Source of the DNA: Candidatus Omnitrophota bacterium
Lineage (GTDB): Bacteria > Hinthialibacterota > Hinthialibacteria > Hinthialibacterales > JAKPRU01
Reading direction: 5' to 3'
NCBI GenBank assembly: GCA_029570205.1
Contig: JAKQSI010000067.1
Location: 1 to 64,000, forward strand
DNA length: 64,000 nt
Shown here piece by piece: positions 43,714 to 58,494 of this stretch. Under the pieces are notes generated by a model that was not told the origin of the DNA, did not search any database, and saw only the letters and a list, made by a program, of their open reading frames with translations. The first letter of the stretch is position 1. The number at the start of each line of letters is the position of its first letter. Position numbers and translations under genes: made by a program.

Positions 43714-45069
43714 TCACTGAACTTTCTGGCCGTATCGTTGCTGATAGAACTCCAGCATTTTCCGGATCTGCTCCGGGGTCATGCCCTGTTTCCAGGCATG
43801 TTCCGGCATCTGCAACACCGAGTCGGCGACACCGGGAAGAAGATTCTCCGCCTCCGGCAGATACTCGTTGTAGAAATGTTTTCCCACTTCGTAGAAACCA
43901 TGCCACTGCGTAAAGTCCGGCCCCATCATGGAGGCGCCCATTCGCGCCCGACGGCCCTCGTGATGCCAGAGTTCATAGAACGTCCACTCGATGGGATCGT
44001 CAAACGGAGTCGGCGTGATCTTGCCGGCCGATTTCAACGATTCCAGGATATTTTCGGCGGGAGCAGCAAACTTTGTGTTCCAGAGATCGACCGCGTCATC
44101 GTACATTCGGAAATAATGGCTCACCCAAGTGTTCGCATGGCATCGGAGACAAACGGACTGCATTCGATTCCGGCGCTCTTCCCATTTGTCCTGTTTCTTG
44201 GAATAGAGCGGGCGAAGCGTCCAGGAAATCCGCAGGCCGACATCGTGGTTGACCGCCAGATTCGATGTCGCGCTTACATGGCAGGTTGCGCAGGTCGGCG
44301 CAGCGGTGTAGTCCTTTCCGACAATCCATTCGTCGGCATCAAGCGCCATGTCCTCCCGAAACGCCGCAAACAGGAGGCCGTGCTTGGATTCCTCGTAGAT
44401 TTCGATTTGCGGGTGATCCGGTCCCATGTGGCACCGCCCGCAGGTACGGGGTTCCCGCGCCTGTTGCTTGGAAAACCTGTGCCGTGTATGACACGCCGTG
44501 CAGCTGCCGAGAGACCCATCGGGGTTGACACGACCGATCCCGGTATTCGGCCAGGTTCCGACAACCGGCACGCCTTTCTCATCCATGGCGACCGTGGAAC
44601 CATGGCATTGTTTGCACCCCAAATTAGCGGCAGGACCACCTTCGATAACCTCTCCCAGAATGTTATCCAGCGACCCGATAAACTGGGCCGCTTTTGCGTG
44701 ATGCGACTGAGCAAATTCTTTCACAGTCGTCTCATGGCAGGTCGCGCAATCGTTCGGCGAAGGCGCATGGGTCAACAGGGAACCCTCATGCTCCCACTTG
44801 TCCGGATCGTCCGGTTTTGCCTCGTGGCATGCGATACACCCGATGCCCATCTCGCCGTGACGCGACTGTGCCCATTGCCGATTCCAATCTACGGCGATTC
44901 CCTTTTCCTCGTGGCAGGCGATACAGGCACGGGTCTTCTCATCCGCGTAAGCCACAGCGGCCTTCTCCGGCCTGGCGCGTTCTCTCTCGATCAGGCCGAC
45001 AAAGATAACAGCCGCGAGAAACGCCACCGCGAACACAGCCACGATAATCTTTTTGAACAACAGGGGCAT
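43714..45069 (-). CDS. Octaheme cytochrome c of the hydroxylamine oxidoreductase family
   Basis: 451 residues with one N-terminal membrane helix. Exactly eight CxxCH heme sites lie at about residues 49, 78, 108, 152, 190, 210, 260 and 307. The stretch CTACHTRHRFSKQQ, CGRCHMGPDHPQIEIYEESK and, near the end, MMGPDFTQWHGFYEV match HAO-type octaheme cytochromes. Phe sits in the DFTQWHG motif where I recall Tyr in oxidising HAO (the heme cross-link); if so, this is a reductive member handling nitrite, NO or hydroxylamine. It follows Rieske and cytochrome b genes 18 bases downstream, so it probably exchanges electrons with the quinone pool. GGAGGA precedes ATG 45069. Confidence 0.85.
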   Translation of the reverse strand: MPLLFKKIIVAVFAVAFLAAVIFVGLIERERARPEKAAVAYADEKTRACIACHEEKGIAVDWNRQWAQSRHGEMGIGCIACHEAKPDDPDKWEHEGSLLTHAPSPNDCATCHETTVKEFAQSHHAKAAQFIGSLDNILGEVIEGGPAANLGCKQCHGSTVAMDEKGVPVVGTWPNTGIGRVNPDGSLGSCTACHTRHRFSKQQAREPRTCGRCHMGPDHPQIEIYEESKHGLLFAAFREDMALDADEWIVGKDYTAAPTCATCHVSATSNLAVNHDVGLRISWTLRPLYSKKQDKWEERRNRMQSVCLRCHANTWVSHYFRMYDDAVDLWNTKFAAPAENILESLKSAGKITPTPFDDPIEWTFYELWHHEGRRARMGASMMGPDFTQWHGFYEVGKHFYNEYLPEAENLLPGVADSVLQMPEHAWKQGMTPEQIRKMLEFYQQRYGQKVQ

Positions 45070-45087
45070 CACAACTCCTCCGCCGAT

Positions 45088-46200
45088 TTATGACATCGCT
45101 TCCCACACAAGAAAAAGCAGAAAAACAACAAAGGCCCCGGCGCCCACTGCCACACCGGCCTCACTACCCGGGCGACGGCTGCGCCAGTAACTATCGATAA
45201 ACGGCCAGATAAACAACCCCAGCCCCGCAACGGCCATTCCGCCCATTCCGAGCCACAATGGAACAAGTTTCAGCCAGCGAAACATCGGGAAAAAGTACCA
45301 TTCCGGCTTGATATGCAGCGGTGTTTCATCGGGATTCGCCGGCTCGCCCAGGTGCGCCGGAAACACTACGGCTAACATCGTCAACAGCGTCAGCAGAAAT
45401 AATCCGACCATCAACTCGGTAGTGACATGATCGGGGAAAAAAGAGAAATAGCGATTCGGATCAAACCGACGTTTCCCTTCGCGGTCTTCCTTTACTGTCA
45501 AGGGGGTCTGCTGCACTTCCGCCGGGGCCTCGAGTTCCATTACCCCATGAATGCGAATCAGAAAGATATGCGCCCCTGCAAGGGCAAAAATGATACACGG
45601 CAGTGCGCCGACATGAAACACGAAAAATCGTGTCAGGGTCGTCGGATTGACATTTTCCCCGCCTTTGAGCAGTCTCGCCGCCCACGGTCCCAGTACCGGA
45701 AACTGCTCCGCAACATTTGTTCCCACCGTTGCAGCCCAGTACGATAATTGATCGTACACCAGGGCATAACCGGTAAACCCCAGTCCCAGCGTGGTAAATA
45801 ACAGACCGACACCGACCAGCCAGTTGAGCTCACGGGGTCTGCGATACGCGCCGGTAAAGAACACCCGAAGAATATGCAGTACAACGGCTACAACCATCAG
45901 GTTCGCTCCCCAATGGTGCATGGAACGAATCCACCAGCCGTACGGAATCTCCCGGCTGATTCGACAAACCGATTTATATGCGTCATCGGGGGATGGAACA
46001 TAATAAAAAGTGAGCAGGATCCCCGTCACCACCTGGACCATCAGAAGTATGAGCAGCGTTCCCCCCAGGCAGTACCACCAATTTTTCATGTGATTGGGAA
46101 TCGGTTCTTTGGAAAGCTCCTCGAAAATCTCGATGTTGACCGGGACCCGTTCACGGAGAAAGCGCAACCAGGATGGGATTCGCGGATGCTCCTCTGTCAT
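45088..46200 (-). CDS. Cytochrome b, fused bc1/b6f-type
   Basis: Quinone-oxidising membrane subunit. 370 residues and about eight helices. The two heme-b His pairs are in MHHWGANLMVVAVVLHILRV and in FFVFHVGALPCIIFALAGAH. The Qo-site motif reads PEWYF (HIKPEWYFFPMF). The N-terminal half resembles cytochrome b6 and the C-terminal part subunit IV, fused here. The start is ATG 46200, seven bases after GGAGG at the end of the Rieske gene. Together with the Rieske and octaheme cytochrome it forms an unusual bc-type complex lacking cytochrome c1. Confidence 0.93.
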   Translation of the reverse strand: MTEEHPRIPSWLRFLRERVPVNIEIFEELSKEPIPNHMKNWWYCLGGTLLILLMVQVVTGILLTFYYVPSPDDAYKSVCRISREIPYGWWIRSMHHWGANLMVVAVVLHILRVFFTGAYRRPRELNWLVGVGLLFTTLGLGFTGYALVYDQLSYWAATVGTNVAEQFPVLGPWAARLLKGGENVNPTTLTRFFVFHVGALPCIIFALAGAHIFLIRIHGVMELEAPAEVQQTPLTVKEDREGKRRFDPNRYFSFFPDHVTTELMVGLFLLTLLTMLAVVFPAHLGEPANPDETPLHIKPEWYFFPMFRWLKLVPLWLGMGGMAVAGLGLFIWPFIDSYWRSRRPGSEAGVAVGAGAFVVFLLFLVWEAMS

Positions 46201-46202
46201 GA

Positions 46203-46649
46203 TCACGCCTCCTTGATCGGCACGGTGACGAAAAGGTTGTTCCCGTCAATCTCTACGGGGAATGCGGGCAGCGGTGTGGGTGGCGGGCCGCCGATGACCT
46301 CGCCATTCGTGTTGAACCGTCCTTTATGACAGGGGCAGAGGAAATCCCCTTCAACGGAATCCCAGTGAACACGGCATCCGAGATGCGTGCAGACCGAGGA
46401 GAATACTTTGATCTCGTCCCGGGAAATCCGAACTGCAATCAGGTCATTTCCATGAACGGCTTTCAGGAATCGGCTGGTCCCAATCTGCAAGTCTCCCAGG
46501 TTCCCGACAAGAACCTGTTCGGACCGCTGTGATTTCTCCGGAACCAGAAAACGCAGGAGATAATTCGCGGCAATTCCAAACCCCGGAACCAGCGTCACCA
46601 GCATCAGCAGATTGGCTGCAAAATCCCGCCGGGACTGAGAAAAGGCCAT
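46203..46649 (-). CDS. Rieske [2Fe-2S] protein
   Basis: Electron-transfer subunit of a quinol-oxidising complex. 148 residues. A Tat-type signal anchor ([20 protein letters not shown]) is followed by the Rieske fold, with cluster ligands in [13 protein letters not shown] and [11 protein letters not shown]; the Pro-loop [13 protein letters not shown] is complete. Start at ATG 46649, with GGGAGA upstream. Its stop codon lies three bases before the start of cytochrome b, so the two are co-translated. Confidence 0.94.
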
Positions 46650-46695
46650 GTCCACTGTCTCCCTTACCTGTTATTCTGAGCCGATGCGGACCGAA

Positions 46696-47124
46696 TCACT
46701 CGAGGTTGCATTGCCTGAACGTGCTCGTCAACTTCGAGAGTTTCGTCTTCGAGAGATAGTTTTTTACCATCTGATTTACCGGACTCAACAGCCCTCCGAG
46801 AATGCAGTTTCGCCCACCGCAGACAGGTGTATGAAACAGGCAGCTACTTGACCCCAGTGGACCGTCGATGGCCTCATAGACTTCCAATAATGTGATTTCA
46901 TCCTTGCTCCGGCTCAAAATAAATCCCCCCTTTGGGCCTCGGATGGAATTCACCAGTCCGGCTTTTCCAAGGCGTTGAAGTACCTTCGACAAGTGGGCCT
47001 CCGAAGCATGAAGCGCAGAGGAGATTTCTTTCGTTGAGAAAATTCGTTTCGGGTACGCCGCCAGGAGAACCACCGTGTGAAGCGCAAGAGAGGCCGCTTC
47101 CGAAACTTTAATTATGTTAGACAT
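46696..47124 (-). CDS. Rrf2-family regulator, NsrR/IscR-like with three cysteines
   Basis: 142 residues. The N-terminal winged helix (FSTKEISSALHASEAHLSKV, then LVNSIRGPKGGFILS) is typical of Rrf2. Three Cys follow at about 95, 102 and 107 (SSCLFHTPVCGGRNCILGG, CX6CX4C), well placed to bind an Fe-S cluster as in NsrR and IscR. It lies upstream of the Rieske operon on the same strand, with a 46-base gap, and probably controls it in response to NO or redox state (inference). ATG 47124 is used; TTG 47133 is possible. A dyad covers its own -10 box. Confidence 0.88.
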   Translation of the reverse strand: MSNIIKVSEAASLALHTVVLLAAYPKRIFSTKEISSALHASEAHLSKVLQRLGKAGLVNSIRGPKGGFILSRSKDEITLLEVYEAIDGPLGSSSCLFHTPVCGGRNCILGGLLSPVNQMVKNYLSKTKLSKLTSTFRQCNLE

Positions 47125-47140
47125 GATGAACAAGCCTTAT

Positions 47141-47184
47141 CCGGTATATCAGTACCATCATACCAGAATAACCCGGCTTGTCAA
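47141..47184 (-). promoter_or_regulatory. Rrf2 gene promoter with overlapping dyad
   Basis: On the minus strand TTGACA (47179-47184), a 16-base spacer and TATGAT (47157-47162). The sequence 47141-47166 forms an inverted repeat with arms CTGGTAT and ATACCGG covering the -10 box, a plausible autoregulatory operator. The -35 box overlaps the stop codon region of the thermonuclease gene. Confidence 0.7.
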
Positions 47185-48394: not shown

Positions 48395-50908
48395 ATGTCC
48401 GCATCCCACTCCGCCCGCGTTGTTGTCCTGGCAGCCATCACCCTCCTTCTCCCGGCTTCCGAAGTTCTCCCGGTAACTCCGACCGCAAGCGAATTCCTCC
48501 CCTGCCGGCAATTGTGCGAACAGTTTTTCGGAATCAGCGCGCATTCGCTTTTCCCTTATATCCAAATCCTCAAGGAAGATGCGCCGGATGCCGTTAGCCG
48601 GGGACAAAGCTGGCGCGGCACACCTTTTCAAATCGGCCGAAAAACATATTCACACGGCATCGCGTTTAATGCTTCAAAAACCATAGCCGTCTATCCGGGC
48701 AAACCGGCGGCGAGATTCATTGCCGAAATCGGCCTGGAGAATAACGACGATACCCGGCGTGGGGCCGAGATGGGCAACGGTTCCGTAACTTTCCACATCT
48801 TGGTCGATGGGACAGAGGTCTATGTTTCGCCTGTGATGCGAATGGCCGACGGTCCCATCCCAATTTCCATCCCGCTTCATGAAGCCGAGAAATTTGACAT
48901 TCAAGTCGGCGACGGTGGTGACGGTCGCGGCTGGGACCAGGCGCTATGGGCAGAGGCCGTGGTCGAATTGACGGACGGCTCGCGGATTCGTTTGCAGGAT
49001 TTTCTCCTGGGCGGGGCGGAAGCCTGCAATCCCTACATGTTTTCATTTCTGTACCGGGATAAACCGAGTTGGGACATTCTACGTGAATGGCAACGCAACG
49101 TCGTGGAGAATCAAGACGGCCCGGACAGATTGTACCGCCGGATTCTCTACCACGATCCGAAGACAGAACTCGAAATTCGGGCTGACATAACCTTATTCCA
49201 TGATTTCCCCGTTATGGAATGGGTTCTTTATCTCAAAAATACAGGTAAAGAGAATACGCCGGTTATTGAGAACATTCTGCCGCTGGATGTAATACTCGGA
49301 AACCCCGGACCGGGTTGGAATATGCTGCACTGGTCCCAGGGCGCAGTAGCCGGTTTCGATGACTTCGCGCCACAGACAACGGTAATGAAACCCGGCGAAA
49401 GACTGCGCCTGCAACCGGGCGGAGGACGGTCCTCCAGCCGGGTACTCCCCTTTTTTAACCTGAGAACCGCTAACGGCGGAACGATTATCGCCGTCGGCTG
49501 GACCGGCGAATGGGCGACCGAATTCATCAGCGACACGACGGGAAATGTAACGGTTACATCCGGTATGGCGGACACCCATCTGGTCCTGTACCCCGGTGAG
49601 GAAATACGAACACCCCGGATGCTGTTACTGACTTACGAAGGCGACCGGTGGCGCGGGCAGAACCTGTTCCGTCAATTCATTCTCGCCCATCATCGCCCAA
49701 AACGGAACGGGGAACCGTTAATTGCGCCGGTTACCAACGGGAATTGGGGCGGCACCCCGGCGGATGTTCATTTGGATAATATCGAGAAAATTATCCGGTA
49801 CGATCTCCCCATTGAGTACTACTGGATCGATGCAGAATGGTACGGCAAACCGGGCGGTCCCGAATCCTGGCCTGTCAACGTCGGTAATTGGGTTGTCAAG
49901 GAACATCTTTACCCACAGGGGTTTCAACCGCTCAGCAAGCGACTTCGAGAAACCAACCGTTACCTCATGCTGTGGTTCGAACCCGAACGGGTCTTCAAGA
50001 ATACAATCTGGTATGAGAACCATCATGATTGGCTGATTGATATCGGGCAGGAAAACAGCCTGCTCAACCTGGGAATCCCGGAGGCCCGACAATTCCTCAC
50101 GGACTTCATTTCCGATAAGGTCAAGGAATTCGGACTGGGCTGCTACCGACAGGATTTCAATATCGACCCGCTGCGATTCTGGCAGGCCGTAGACAAACCG
50201 GACCGTCAGGGAATGACAGAGATCCGTTACATCGAAGGTCTGTATGCCTTCTGGGATGAACTCCTGGAGCGCCACCCGGACCTGATTATTGACAATTGTG
50301 CCAGCGGTGGGCGGCGCCTGGATCTGGAAACCCTGGGGCGGACAACGCCGTTCTGGCGCACCGATGGTCCCCGCGATCCGATCGCCCATCAATGCCATAC
50401 CTGGGGACTCTTGCCGTGGGTTCCGCTCAACGCGACCAGCCAGGACCGTGTGGGAGATGATTACGAATTCCGCAGCAGTATGTGCAGCAGTCTGTGTGTG
50501 AATTGGTGGGTTTCCGGCGATGTCCGCGCGGGCGAAATCCGCCCCGATTTCCCGTTCGATTGGGCCAAAAAGACTCTGGATCAATACCTGCAATATCGTC
50601 CGTATTATTATGGCGACTATTATCCGTTACTTGATTACTCCCAGTCCGCCGATCTCTGGTATGCCTATCAGATGGATCGCCCCGATCTGGGCGAGGGCCT
50701 GATTGTCGTTCTCAAGCGGCCCGCGAGTTCTTACACTTCGGCGAATGTGAAATTGTACGGAATGGAATCCGACCGGGACTATCGAATTACCGATCTCGGC
50801 ACGGGAAAAGAGGAAACGCAAAACGGTAATGAATTGCGCTCCGAGGGGCTGCCCGTTCGCCTGGACAATTGCCCGGATTCCGCGCTCTTTGTCTACAAGC
50901 GAATGTAG
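48395..50908 (+). CDS. GH36-type alpha-galactosidase with NPCBM domain
   Basis: Exported 837-residue enzyme. After a signal peptide, residues ~60-210 form an NPCBM carbohydrate-binding module (GRKTYSHGIAFNASKTIAVY). A beta-sandwich and a TIM barrel follow: NGNWGGTPADVHLDNIEKII, YYWIDAEWYG, then the nucleophile Asp in GLGCYRQDFNIDPL (about residue 587), LIIDNCASGGRRLDLE and the acid/base Asp in FWRTDGPRDP. These fit GH36/GH27 clan D. GGAGG lies nine bases before the ATG. It would release alpha-galactosyl or similar residues from polymers. Confidence 0.88.
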   Translation: MSASHSARVVVLAAITLLLPASEVLPVTPTASEFLPCRQLCEQFFGISAHSLFPYIQILKEDAPDAVSRGQSWRGTPFQIGRKTYSHGIAFNASKTIAVYPGKPAARFIAEIGLENNDDTRRGAEMGNGSVTFHILVDGTEVYVSPVMRMADGPIPISIPLHEAEKFDIQVGDGGDGRGWDQALWAEAVVELTDGSRIRLQDFLLGGAEACNPYMFSFLYRDKPSWDILREWQRNVVENQDGPDRLYRRILYHDPKTELEIRADITLFHDFPVMEWVLYLKNTGKENTPVIENILPLDVILGNPGPGWNMLHWSQGAVAGFDDFAPQTTVMKPGERLRLQPGGGRSSSRVLPFFNLRTANGGTIIAVGWTGEWATEFISDTTGNVTVTSGMADTHLVLYPGEEIRTPRMLLLTYEGDRWRGQNLFRQFILAHHRPKRNGEPLIAPVTNGNWGGTPADVHLDNIEKIIRYDLPIEYYWIDAEWYGKPGGPESWPVNVGNWVVKEHLYPQGFQPLSKRLRETNRYLMLWFEPERVFKNTIWYENHHDWLIDIGQENSLLNLGIPEARQFLTDFISDKVKEFGLGCYRQDFNIDPLRFWQAVDKPDRQGMTEIRYIEGLYAFWDELLERHPDLIIDNCASGGRRLDLETLGRTTPFWRTDGPRDPIAHQCHTWGLLPWVPLNATSQDRVGDDYEFRSSMCSSLCVNWWVSGDVRAGEIRPDFPFDWAKKTLDQYLQYRPYYYGDYYPLLDYSQSADLWYAYQMDRPDLGEGLIVVLKRPASSYTSANVKLYGMESDRDYRITDLGTGKEETQNGNELRSEGLPVRLDNCPDSALFVYKRM

Positions 50909-55242: not shown

Positions 55243-58239
55243 TCAGCGCGGCACGCTCTGCAATCCCAAAGTCAGATGCGCCGGGCCGGTCACCTGGTAA
55301 AGCAACCGCCCATCTTTCTCCCCAATCGCCTGCACATTCTTCGGCAATTCTTTCTTGCCGTTGATCAGCGCTCTCGGCTTGATCACTGCCTGAAGGGGCA
55401 AGGAGACGGTGACGGCACACTCTGCCGGGCAACTCAGTTCCGTTCCCAGCACATACCCGCCGGATCGCTGAGTGAGTTTGACCGAAATATCGCCCTTTGG
55501 TGTCGGGACCGTGACGGACACATTGTTCAGTCCGCCCAGGTTGGGTTCCAGGATCGCTGTTTTCCAGCCGGGGGAAAGCGGTCTCAGGCCCACAATCTGC
55601 GCGGGAATAATCCAGGTCGGAGCGGAAGATGCCCCATAACAACAGGACGGTTTTCCATCCCAGGTTTCCCATAAAGAAGCGGCTCCGCTATCCAGCATTT
55701 TTCCCCAACGCTGCCCCATGATGGTAAGCACATCACCCTGCCGATTTGCTTTGCAGAGAGCATCCAGCCAATAGAAAGAGAAATACGGAGTTGCCTCGAC
55801 AGCCTTGTTCTCAGGATTGGAGAGATAGTCAAGAATCGGGTTGTGGACTTTCTTCGGGGCCAATCCGAAAAGAATCGCCAGTGCGTTGGTTTGTTGGCTG
55901 ACAGATTCGCTGAGTGAACCGTCTTGATACGTATCGCGAAAAATGCCTGCCTCGTTGTCCCAAAACCGGGATTCGAATGCCTTTTGGACGGATTTGGCGC
56001 GGTTGGCGAACTGCTGGGCATGATCGAGGTTTCCGATCTGCTGCGCCATGGCGGAGGCATCGCACAGCGCCTTGTAATAGAAAGCGTTCAGCGCGGCGGA
56101 AACCCCGTTCCGGTCCATTTCCACCCGGTCGATCACAATCCGGCCCAGATCGCCCGCAATCAGGCCCTCTTCGTTTTCGTGCCCCGCGAACCATGAAAGC
56201 AGCCGAACCACGTTCGGGAAAACCTCGCGGACCAGGGAATCATCGCCGGTCTGGAAATAATCGTCGTAAAGCGCCATCACCCAGATCAGCATGGAGTCCG
56301 CAATCAGCGCATCCTCCGAGTCTGTCGGATAAATCCCATACACCCGCCCATCGGGCAGCTGGGACTGCGCAATCAGCCGCAGGCAGCGTCGCGCCAGGGC
56401 CGTATCGCCGAAAGCGTAATCATTGCAGAGCATTTCGACGCGCGCCTCTGCTGTGTGCAACGCGCGGTCACACCAGGGGCTATCCAGGTACACATCCTCC
56501 ATGCAGGCGCGAAGAGTATCCACTCCGGCCTGCCAGATTCGATTCAGGCGGTCATTGGAGGAAGAAAACGCTCCACGGATCTGGACCGGATACCCGCCGG
56601 GACGGACTTTGATTGAGGAAATCTGCAACGGCCCGCCGGTGCGATACACGTCCAGCCGCAAATACCGGAATCCCCGCTTGTCCAACGTGCGGATCGTTTG
56701 CGGCCCGCTCCGGCAGATATAACGGTCCGCATAAAGGACCTCAGATGTGTATGGGTCTACTCTGCCGTCTTCTGTCAGAGACTCGCTGTAGCCGATGTCG
56801 ATCTGTGTCCCTTCCTGGGCCTGATACAGTTCGATTTCGGGGTATCCCAGGAGGACCATACCAAAATCCAGCACAATCGAAATGCCGGATGAGTCGTCCA
56901 GTGTGGAAAGAGTCGCTCGTCCTTCCTGTCCCAGAATGGTTTCTGCGCCTGCTACGGTACTTCCCTGAAGAGGGCCAAGCCAGGACCGCGACATGGAAAC
57001 GGCCGGTTGCAATGTCTCCGAACGGACCTCTGTCCGCTGCCAGGACAGCGCTTTTCCGTCTATTCCCTCGCACATCGATGAGAGATCCACGCTGATCTCA
57101 GGCGGATAGACCGTTGTAAAACCGATATCTCCCGTGTTGTCGAACGGCCCGATCAGATGCCATACGGGGACCGGCTGCCCCTGATCTTCCGTCGAAGAAA
57201 AGCGCAGGGTATCCACGCCTTCGCCATCGAAACGCAGGAACAACTGCCATTCGCCATCTGTCTGGGTAACTTTCGCCAACAGCGGATTCCAGCCGGCATT
57301 CAGAACAACCGACACTCTGTCCTGGTTGGGGGAAGCACGACGCGAGACATTCTGTTCGATCACCGATTGCCCATTCAGCCAGACATGAAGACCATCATCG
57401 CTTCCGCAAACCAGATCCAGTGTGCATTCCGTTTCGCTGTAAACTTGTGTGAATGCGTAGACAACCGCCTTCTTGCTGGGTGATATGAATTGGGTAAAAT
57501 CCAGGTGGAATTGTTGTTTCGGGGCGACGACACTGCTGACCGAAAGAATGCTCCGTGGAGAAACAAGTTCCCCTGTCGCCGGGGCAATGTCACGGGGGAT
57601 CAGTTCTTTCCAGGGCTCCTGCGGATGCGGCCCGATGACCATCGCCGATGCCCAATAGGAATCGTCAAATCCCACCGTATTCCAGGTCGAGGGCTCCTGA
57701 CGGGCGTCGAAAATCTCACTATATCCCAGTTCTTTGCTCATTCGAGGCATGTCATAAGTCCACGGTTCGGCGGGGCGCACTTTCCAGGAGCCATCCGAAA
57801 GAATGCGAAGGGTGGTTTGATCCGCCAGGGCGACGGTCCCGTCCACAAGGAGGCCGCCACGCCCGGAAATATACGACAGTGTGCTTGTCCCGATATGATG
57901 AACCAACACACAGACCACATTTGCCCCGGTCTTGAGAACCCCCTGCAAATCGTATGTATCATAGGCCAGCCGTTTTGGATTCGAGCGCACCGGACCTCTG
58001 CCGATTTCTGTGCCGTTGACATACAGGACATAGTTGCTGTCGGCGGTGATATTCAGACTGGCGGACCGGATTTCGCCCGCCACATCGAGCGTCTTGCGGC
58101 AATACAGGTAGAGATTTGTTGGAGAGGGTTCGTTTTCGCACCAGATCCAGGATCCCCCCCAGGAAGGATTTTGCGCTCCGGCCGATGTAAGCGGAACGCA
58201 GCACAACAGCAGAATCAGGACTATCCGCGCGTGGTTCAT
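55243..58239 (-). CDS. GH78-type alpha-L-rhamnosidase-like enzyme
   Basis: Exported, 998 residues. Signal peptide IVLILLLCCVPLTSAGAQ. Beta-sandwich domains come first (ITADSNYVLYVNGTEIGRGP), including a PA14/carbohydrate-binding-like insert (FRFDGEG region), then an (alpha/alpha)6 barrel containing YLDSPWCDRALHTAEARVEM, where GH78 normally has DCPxRxERxxxxGD, and SLWETWDGKPSCCYGASSAP, with a catalytic Glu likely in this segment. A small beta domain ends it. The active-site motif is divergent, so the sugar may not be rhamnose. ATG 58239 has AAGGGGG upstream. Confidence 0.8.
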   Translation of the reverse strand: MNHARIVLILLLCCVPLTSAGAQNPSWGGSWIWCENEPSPTNLYLYCRKTLDVAGEIRSASLNITADSNYVLYVNGTEIGRGPVRSNPKRLAYDTYDLQGVLKTGANVVCVLVHHIGTSTLSYISGRGGLLVDGTVALADQTTLRILSDGSWKVRPAEPWTYDMPRMSKELGYSEIFDARQEPSTWNTVGFDDSYWASAMVIGPHPQEPWKELIPRDIAPATGELVSPRSILSVSSVVAPKQQFHLDFTQFISPSKKAVVYAFTQVYSETECTLDLVCGSDDGLHVWLNGQSVIEQNVSRRASPNQDRVSVVLNAGWNPLLAKVTQTDGEWQLFLRFDGEGVDTLRFSSTEDQGQPVPVWHLIGPFDNTGDIGFTTVYPPEISVDLSSMCEGIDGKALSWQRTEVRSETLQPAVSMSRSWLGPLQGSTVAGAETILGQEGRATLSTLDDSSGISIVLDFGMVLLGYPEIELYQAQEGTQIDIGYSESLTEDGRVDPYTSEVLYADRYICRSGPQTIRTLDKRGFRYLRLDVYRTGGPLQISSIKVRPGGYPVQIRGAFSSSNDRLNRIWQAGVDTLRACMEDVYLDSPWCDRALHTAEARVEMLCNDYAFGDTALARRCLRLIAQSQLPDGRVYGIYPTDSEDALIADSMLIWVMALYDDYFQTGDDSLVREVFPNVVRLLSWFAGHENEEGLIAGDLGRIVIDRVEMDRNGVSAALNAFYYKALCDASAMAQQIGNLDHAQQFANRAKSVQKAFESRFWDNEAGIFRDTYQDGSLSESVSQQTNALAILFGLAPKKVHNPILDYLSNPENKAVEATPYFSFYWLDALCKANRQGDVLTIMGQRWGKMLDSGAASLWETWDGKPSCCYGASSAPTWIIPAQIVGLRPLSPGWKTAILEPNLGGLNNVSVTVPTPKGDISVKLTQRSGGYVLGTELSCPAECAVTVSLPLQAVIKPRALINGKKELPKNVQAIGEKDGRLLYQVTGPAHLTLGLQSVPR

Positions 58240-58494
58240 TGAGCGACCCCCTTGGTGGTTCGGATGGGACATTCCGGTGTGACAGAATCGGTTGTGTTGT
58301 CCGTGTATCACAAAAACCGATTGGTGATAAGATCATAACGACTGTATGACCTGATGGGAACACCGTCAACACTTTTCGGTGCAATTTTTGCGTGAATTTC
58401 CGCAGCGGGATTGCCCGGCTCATGCCCGTCGGGTACTGTATCGCGGGAGGGTTTCGAAAAAAGCCCGTCGGAAATAAGGGAAAGGTTCAACGAG

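Follow-up and report, generated by a model that had tools for sequence, protein, structure and literature searches.

What does a Rieske/cytochrome b complex do when no cytochrome c1 gene accompanies it and an octaheme cytochrome c is encoded in its place? The question is raised by four genes on the minus strand of a 64,000-nucleotide stretch (the window) of contig JAKQSI010000067.1 from a Candidatus Omnitrophota bacterium, which encode an Rrf2 regulator, a Rieske iron-sulfur protein, a cytochrome b and an octaheme cytochrome of the hydroxylamine oxidoreductase (HAO) superfamily (Table 1). It is likely that the operon encodes a membrane-bound quinol:nitrite, or more generally nitrogen-oxide, reductase that converts nitrite into ammonium. 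Nitrospira and many other bacteria are already known to carry this gene set, so it is not a new system; the published Nitrospira arrangement is here extended to a poorly known lineage, and it is present in many other phyla.

Operon structure

The four open reading frames (ORFs) lie in the compact order that the original prediction had given, and Pfam agrees with each assignment. The regulator and Rieske genes are separated by 40 nt, the Rieske and cytochrome b genes overlap by 4 nt, and 15 nt lie between cytochrome b and the octaheme gene. Cytochrome c1 had been predicted to be missing, and neither the ORF list nor the Pfam search revealed a c1-like ORF in the cluster. Both other genomes of the genus (G001 and G002) have the identical four-gene order and the same order is found again across many phyla, which argues that it is not a product of chance; a real, compact and well-formed operon is thereby confirmed. 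Its regulator gene starts at an ATG conserved in all three genomes of the genus (these two and the window's own assembly, G000), while the alternative TTG start at 47133 in the mechanical ORF list is out of frame in one sister genome and is probably not the one used. Directly downstream of the octaheme gene, Pfam identifies an O-antigen ligase/TPR protein.

Table 1. Genes and regulatory elements of the operon, in window coordinates
Feature	Position	Strand	Remarks
Predicted sigma-70-type promoter ahead of rrf2	47157..47184	minus	TTGACA-N16-TATGAT, TG before -10; 11/12 consensus bases
Putative Rrf2 operator	47144..47163		GTAT-N12-ATAC; overlaps -10 and start site; kept in G000, G001, G002
Rrf2 regulator gene	46696-47124	minus	ATG start at 47124; 142 aa
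Rieske iron-sulfur subunit	46203-46655	minus	150 aa; Pfam Rieske 5e-13 and cluster motifs
Cytochrome b	45088-46206	minus	372 aa; Pfam Cytochrome_B 5e-54, Cytochrom_B_C 1e-8
Octaheme cytochrome c, membrane-anchored, HAO superfamily (ONR-like clade)	43714-45072	minus	Pfam Multi-haem_cyto; eight CxxCH

The octaheme cytochrome

The octaheme protein has an N-terminal membrane anchor and exactly eight CxxCH motifs (residues 50, 79, 109, 153, 191, 211, 261 and 308), and in the alignment all eight hemes fall column by column on those of Nitrosomonas europaea HAO. Strong PDB matches by sequence and profile were solely to the HAO superfamily, with 4qo5 (Ignicoccus hospitalis IhOCC) first, followed by 6h5l (Kuenenia HAOr), 1fgj (HAO) and 6hif (hydrazine dehydrogenase, HDH). 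A fold search with an AlphaFold2 model (mean pLDDT 88) gave TM scores of 0.72 to 4QO5, 0.63 to HAOr 6H5L and 0.60 to HAO 1FGJ. With its hemes in register and HAO-type folds as matches, the protein is a true member of the superfamily, as had been proposed. Placement among the tetrathionate reductase-type cytochromes did not occur in the sequence, profile or fold searches, and an octaheme tetrathionate reductase was rejected on these grounds. A Thioalkalivibrio-type octaheme nitrite reductase (ONR; TvNiR, NrfA-like with a CxxCK catalytic heme) was rejected as well, since the fold match to 3F29 is weak (TM 0.39, E 0.12) and all eight hemes are of the CxxCH type.

The predicted catalytic heme is heme 4 (C153-H157). 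In N. europaea HAO, Tyr467 cross-links to this heme; the column of this residue, whose place in the PDB sequence was determined by counting, is occupied by Trp390 in the window protein and by Trp in its clade. The column holds Tyr in HAO, HDH and Kuenenia HAO, Trp in HAOr and the anammox paralogue linked to Rieske/b, and Phe in IhOCC. The HAO active-site pair Asp267-His268 corresponds to Asp219-His220, is invariant in a 37-row alignment and is present throughout the clade except in dockerin-bearing paralogues. Because Trp replaces Tyr while the Asp-His pair is kept, the protein appears to be a reductase with a working active site, and a reductive mechanism is well supported by these residues.

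Identity with an oxidative HAO or HDH was rejected for want of the cross-linking Tyr. The same absence speaks against the idea that the complex works oxidatively, in the manner of HAO, and delivers electrons from hydroxylamine or nitric oxide (NO) to the quinone pool, an idea for which membership of the superfamily would speak. As the normal energetics of a Rieske/b complex favour quinol oxidation, and neither an ammonia-oxidising context nor COX1 was found, we regard this direction as extremely unlikely.

IhOCC is the best match by both sequence and fold, and shares with the window protein an insert of ~34 residues between hemes 4 and 5 (motif WPNxGxGRxNPDGS) that HAO, HDH and HAOr lack. Unlike the window protein, it has lost the active-site His, keeping the Asp with Val in place of the His (DPDV), and it lies in a separate clade with an anammox paralogue. 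Kuenenia HAOr (Kustc0458, 6H5L), which reduces nitrite, resembles the window protein in its HAO fold and its Trp at the cross-link column; it differs in having no insert between hemes 4 and 5 and in being complexed with Kustc0457 instead of Rieske/b. These comparisons bear on whether the octaheme protein could be a mere electron wire that replaces c1 and feeds another acceptor in the periplasm or at the outer surface. Multiheme proteins often serve as wires, IhOCC has no proven catalytic role, and the genome encodes another eight-heme protein of 807 aa. The catalytic Asp-His pair is nevertheless kept across the clade, dockerin-bearing paralogues aside, although IhOCC lost the His, and clade members without any Rieske/b partner retain the same residues, so that a pure wire seems very unlikely.

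A second, divergent octaheme paralogue is encoded at L025:6637-8019 (G001, same genus) and L023:6365-7714 (G008, same order). Here the heme 4 pocket reads CHMGHGKPQ and CHAGHDKPQ, respectively, instead of GPDHPQ, and the C-terminus carries a dockerin-like repeat (DLNQDGKVDGKDL). The window's own genome yielded no such dockerin-bearing paralogue.

Phylogeny and gene neighbourhoods

The tree of octaheme proteins comprised 90 rows and was built by a quick IQ-TREE run with SH-aLRT supports; Campylobacterota epsilon-HAO sequences were left out. For IhOCC and 1FGJ the rows were reconstructed from PDB alignments as printed; both are without short end pieces, and IhOCC is also without residues ~37-75. 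Long branches were flagged elsewhere in the tree; the window row has a short branch, and stars mark its near neighbours. The octaheme protein falls in a clade of 62 rows (SH-aLRT 99) spanning many phyla, within which it adjoins a subclade containing Nitrospira moscoviensis (SH-aLRT 93). The clade excludes HAO, HDH and HAOr, and also the HAO-like subunit of the anammox Rieske/b complex. Checked by phylogeny against HAO and the anammox paralogues, as had been proposed, the protein thus belongs to a separate ONR-like clade.

Gene neighbourhoods were counted in GTDB genomes, around the genes of the 80 best relatives. At 21 of these loci both Rieske and cytochrome b are present, and at three more the cytochrome b is cut by a contig edge. 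Mapped on the tree, presence of Rieske/b requires 9 changes versus 19.0 +/- 1.8 with shuffled labels, and the partner has therefore been inherited in blocks yet exchanged several times; it is missing even among the nearest relatives, in Coatesbacteria (L038) and Verrucomicrobia (L039). Vibrio, Neiella, Aliagarivorans and Aquificota have a tetraheme partner instead, and the Aquificota members concerned (L075, L079) belong to the 62-row clade. The other alternative partner is an NrfCD-like module (NCBIfam DsrP over cut-off, DsrO below cut-off), for example in the order-mate L024. For one kind of octaheme reductase there are hence three or more different partner modules that oxidise quinol, and this swapping of Rieske/b, NrfCD-like and tetraheme modules points to the octaheme protein as the terminal acceptor enzyme.

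The neighbourhoods also connect the clade with nitrogen metabolism. In Bacteroidales/Chlorobiota the operon reads Rrf2, an exported ORF, Rieske, cytochrome b, octaheme, NapA, NapG and NapH. NapA, NapG and NapH adjoin clade members at L058 and L069, and NapA does so at L043, L048, L050, L056 and L059; NapA is also next to the octaheme gene in several Planctomycetota and Myxococcota. At four Nitrospira loci two ammonium transporter genes lie upstream.

Two further arrangements were seen. A candidate division KSB1 locus (L076) carries two tandem Rieske-cytochrome b-multiheme sets, one ONR-like and the other with a very divergent nine-CxxCH protein. In the multi-OCC, anammox-like genomes G196 and G178 (L201, L209, L210) a member of the ONR-like clade without Rieske/b neighbours occurs besides the HAO-like protein of the Rieske/b complex.

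Cytochrome b and the Rieske protein

The cytochrome b is one single polypeptide with a b6-type core and a fused part resembling subunit IV. Its heme ligands are His97/111 and His198/213, the helix D histidines (198 and 213) having 14 residues between them, and it carries a WWYCLGG stretch with Cys46 and PEWY at 301. The corresponding cysteine holds heme ci in b6 proteins. The Rieske protein has one N-terminal transmembrane helix, with CTHLGC at 89 and CPCH at 107. Where bc1 Rieske proteins carry CPCHGSHY it has CPCHKGRF, without the Ser and the Tyr that raise the potential; these comparisons with b6 and bc1 sequences lean on established knowledge. Loss of this Ser or Tyr lowers the potential by ~130 or ~65 mV, respectively (quoted in PMC12954380). 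The motifs suggest a b6-type cytochrome b and a Rieske potential suited to menaquinol, in contrast to the high-potential Rieske proteins of anammox bacteria.

Comparison with known systems

The octaheme nitrite reductase of N. moscoviensis has two Rieske/cytochrome b genes upstream and is highly expressed on nitrite as sole nitrogen source (PMC6606698), and expression of the N. japonica ONR was not seen once ammonia was added (cited in PMC6606698). From gene order and genome we infer that the published N. moscoviensis ONR is the gene at L057. This locus shares with the window the order Rieske, cytochrome b, octaheme and the same supported subclade (SH-aLRT 93), and its octaheme protein likewise keeps Asp-His and has Trp for Tyr. 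It differs by two Amt genes upstream and by the lack of an Rrf2 gene found beside it, as well as in its Rieske motif CTDLGC (His to Asp) and a cytochrome b with PPWY and without the b6-type Cys, where the window has CTHLGC, PEWY and Cys46. The Nitrospira Rieske genes at L057:6349-6795 and L064:6223-6717 both encode CTDLGC, and their cytochrome b proteins have PPWY and lack the b6-type Cys; the usual motif search also found nothing in L061 and L068.

In Caldithrix abyssi a Rieske/b pair lies beside eHao and Nap, and direct transfer from Rieske to eHao has been proposed (PMC5317091). As in the window, Rieske and cytochrome b genes adjoin a gene for an HAO-like octaheme protein (PMC5317091); unlike there, they are part of a nap locus, and no Nap was found in the window genome.

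The original prediction had likened the layout to anammox bc complexes. The Kuenenia Rieske/b complex Kuste4569-4574 (PMC12954380) does have an HAO-like octaheme partner, with Trp at the Tyr column, and to this extent the comparison stands. It is no close parallel, since in the Kuenenia complex b6 and subunit IV are split, a hexaheme cytochrome and an NAD(P) oxidoreductase are additionally present, the Rieske protein is of high potential and the octaheme protein belongs to a different clade; the anammox loci L196 and L204 also differ in gene content from the window operon. Membership of the anammox Rieske/b complex was rejected by gene content and clade. An anammox-type complex coupling nitrite reduction to NAD(P)H formation could be suspected from the joint presence of Rieske, cytochrome b and an HAO-like protein and from the Trp that the anammox bc paralogue also carries. 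It is largely refuted by gene content, the window having neither an NAD(P) oxidoreductase nor a hexaheme subunit and its cytochrome b being in one piece, and with the octaheme protein in another clade and a Rieske protein without the Ser and Tyr of Kuste4569 it is hardly conceivable. The close parallels are the Nitrospira ONR operon and the Caldithrix Rieske/cytochrome b-eHao pair.

Genome context

The window's own assembly (G000) is 4.39 Mb in size and 93% complete. The cytochrome b of this operon is its only one of the PF00033 family, and the octaheme gene is the only one found with the clade profile. Haem-copper oxidase (COX1) was not found in the assembly, cytochrome bd and other acceptors not having been searched for, nor was siroheme nitrite/sulfite reductase. 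No convincing NrfA was found there, the only PF02335 match being weak, 50 positions long and within an 807-aa eight-heme protein, so that a second nitrite reductase was rejected. The 807-aa protein itself, with eight CxxCH motifs (L217:6179-8599, contig C52), is possibly another multiheme electron-transfer protein. The PF00384 matches were rejected as nitrate reductases from gene order and inspection of the sequence by eye: they are NuoG, within a nuo cluster, and a protein encoded next to a NiFe hydrogenase. In the latter region (L216, contig C113) NiFe hydrogenase-like genes were read by eye beside a NuoG/HoxU-like protein. A cytochrome c assembly (maturation) protein is encoded. The operon could form the last link of a short chain that starts at complex I, runs via menaquinone and ends at external nitrite.

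Proposed function

Menaquinol would be oxidised at the cytochrome b/Rieske site, and high-potential electrons would pass from the Rieske cluster directly to the octaheme cytochrome, which would replace c1 and act as the terminal enzyme. The eight hemes would conduct electrons to heme 4, where Asp219 and His220 may assist in the reduction of nitrite, most likely fully to ammonium. Low-potential electrons would run through the two b hemes, probably with heme ci on Cys46, back to quinone, and on account of this return the complex could conserve energy. What the analysis shows is the gene content and order, the conserved motifs, the family placement, the missing Tyr and the genome context; the substrate, the direction of flow, the direct transfer and the repression by the regulator are inferred. 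The quinone-linked nitrogen-oxide chemistry that had been predicted is the best reading of the locus, given the ONR-like clade, the parallel with Nitrospira ONR and the Nap and Amt neighbours in relatives.

Several observations weigh against nitrite reduction. No nitrate reductase was found in G000 by the PF00384 search, so that nitrite would have to be external, although at 93% completeness such absences are not final. No Nap or Amt gene lies beside the window operon. No established substrate was found for IhOCC, the best structural match, and no biochemistry was found for any member of the window's subclade; what is published on Nitrospira ONR concerns its expression.

The missing nitrate reductase would also suit the same complex with an octaheme protein that serves detoxification, or the reduction of hydroxylamine or NO, instead of nitrite respiration or assimilation. 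An Fe-S type Rrf2 regulator heading the operon would fit this purpose, and reductive HAO relatives do act on other steps, Kuenenia HAOr reducing nitrite to NO. The relatives are, however, tied to genes for nitrate reduction and ammonium uptake, and Nitrospira ONR expression tracks nitrogen assimilation; a role in detoxification thus appears unlikely.

With nitrite reduction to ammonium as the preferred reading, one may speculate, with considerable reservation, that the operon is the only Q-cycle complex and the terminal reductase in one, permitting nitrite ammonification with proton pumping in an organism that lacks nitrate reductase, NrfA, c1 and haem-copper oxidase, while order-mates plug an octaheme protein of the same kind and the Rrf2 switch into an NrfCD-type module that is no Q-cycle complex. 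The family offers a natural comparison for electrogenic nitrite ammonification, since its Rieske/b-linked versions could conserve energy via the Q cycle and the tetraheme-linked ones would not. Two leads are corrected by the analysis, the anammox parallel treated above and the NsrR label of the regulator.

Regulation

The Rrf2 protein matches Pfam Rrf2 (2e-29) and, over cut-off, TIGR00738 of the Rrf2 superfamily (96.5 bits). Its cysteines, Cys95-x6-Cys102-x4-Cys107, had been read as the pattern of NO-sensing NsrR. This was not borne out: no subfamily model scored over its cut-off (NsrR 40.1/182 bits, IscR 56/208, SUF regulator 64/111), the IscR and SUF models being ahead of NsrR, and the C-x6-C-x4-C spacing is generic for Fe-S Rrf2 proteins and not diagnostic. 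The three cysteines lie in the effector region and are compatible with an Fe-S cluster, and the regulator may be described as an Fe-S type Rrf2 protein. Rrf2 genes adjoin the octaheme family in 8 of the 80 best loci, a recurrence that makes a link with nitrogen-oxide or redox sensing plausible. The Rrf2 protein of L024 is 50% identical to that of the window, though it adjoins the NrfCD-like version of the locus; the Rrf2 protein of L027 did not show the three-cysteine pattern.

The predicted promoter ahead of rrf2 is the top-scoring sigma-70 match of the region and is the same in all three genomes of the genus, with divergent DNA just upstream in one; given the position of the promoter, the upstream nuclease-like gene is probably outside the operon. 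The putative operator in Table 1 has the same outer half-sites (GTAT/ATAC) and the same spacing as TATTTGTATACTTAATCTAGTATACAAATA, a perfect palindrome located in L024's divergent promoter. This is suggestive of an operator common to both loci, for a motif chosen after the sequence had been seen. Three further copies of the bare pattern occur in the window, all within coding sequence, and a window-wide operator was rejected on this basis. The regulator, with an Fe-S cluster on its three cysteines, would repress the promoter and release it upon NO, nitrite-derived stress or a redox change.

Neighbouring genes

Secreted carbohydrate-active genes lie close to the operon. They include a melibiase with an NPCBM domain (window 48395-50908, plus strand) and, as read by eye, a rhamnosidase-like protein (55243-58311, minus strand).

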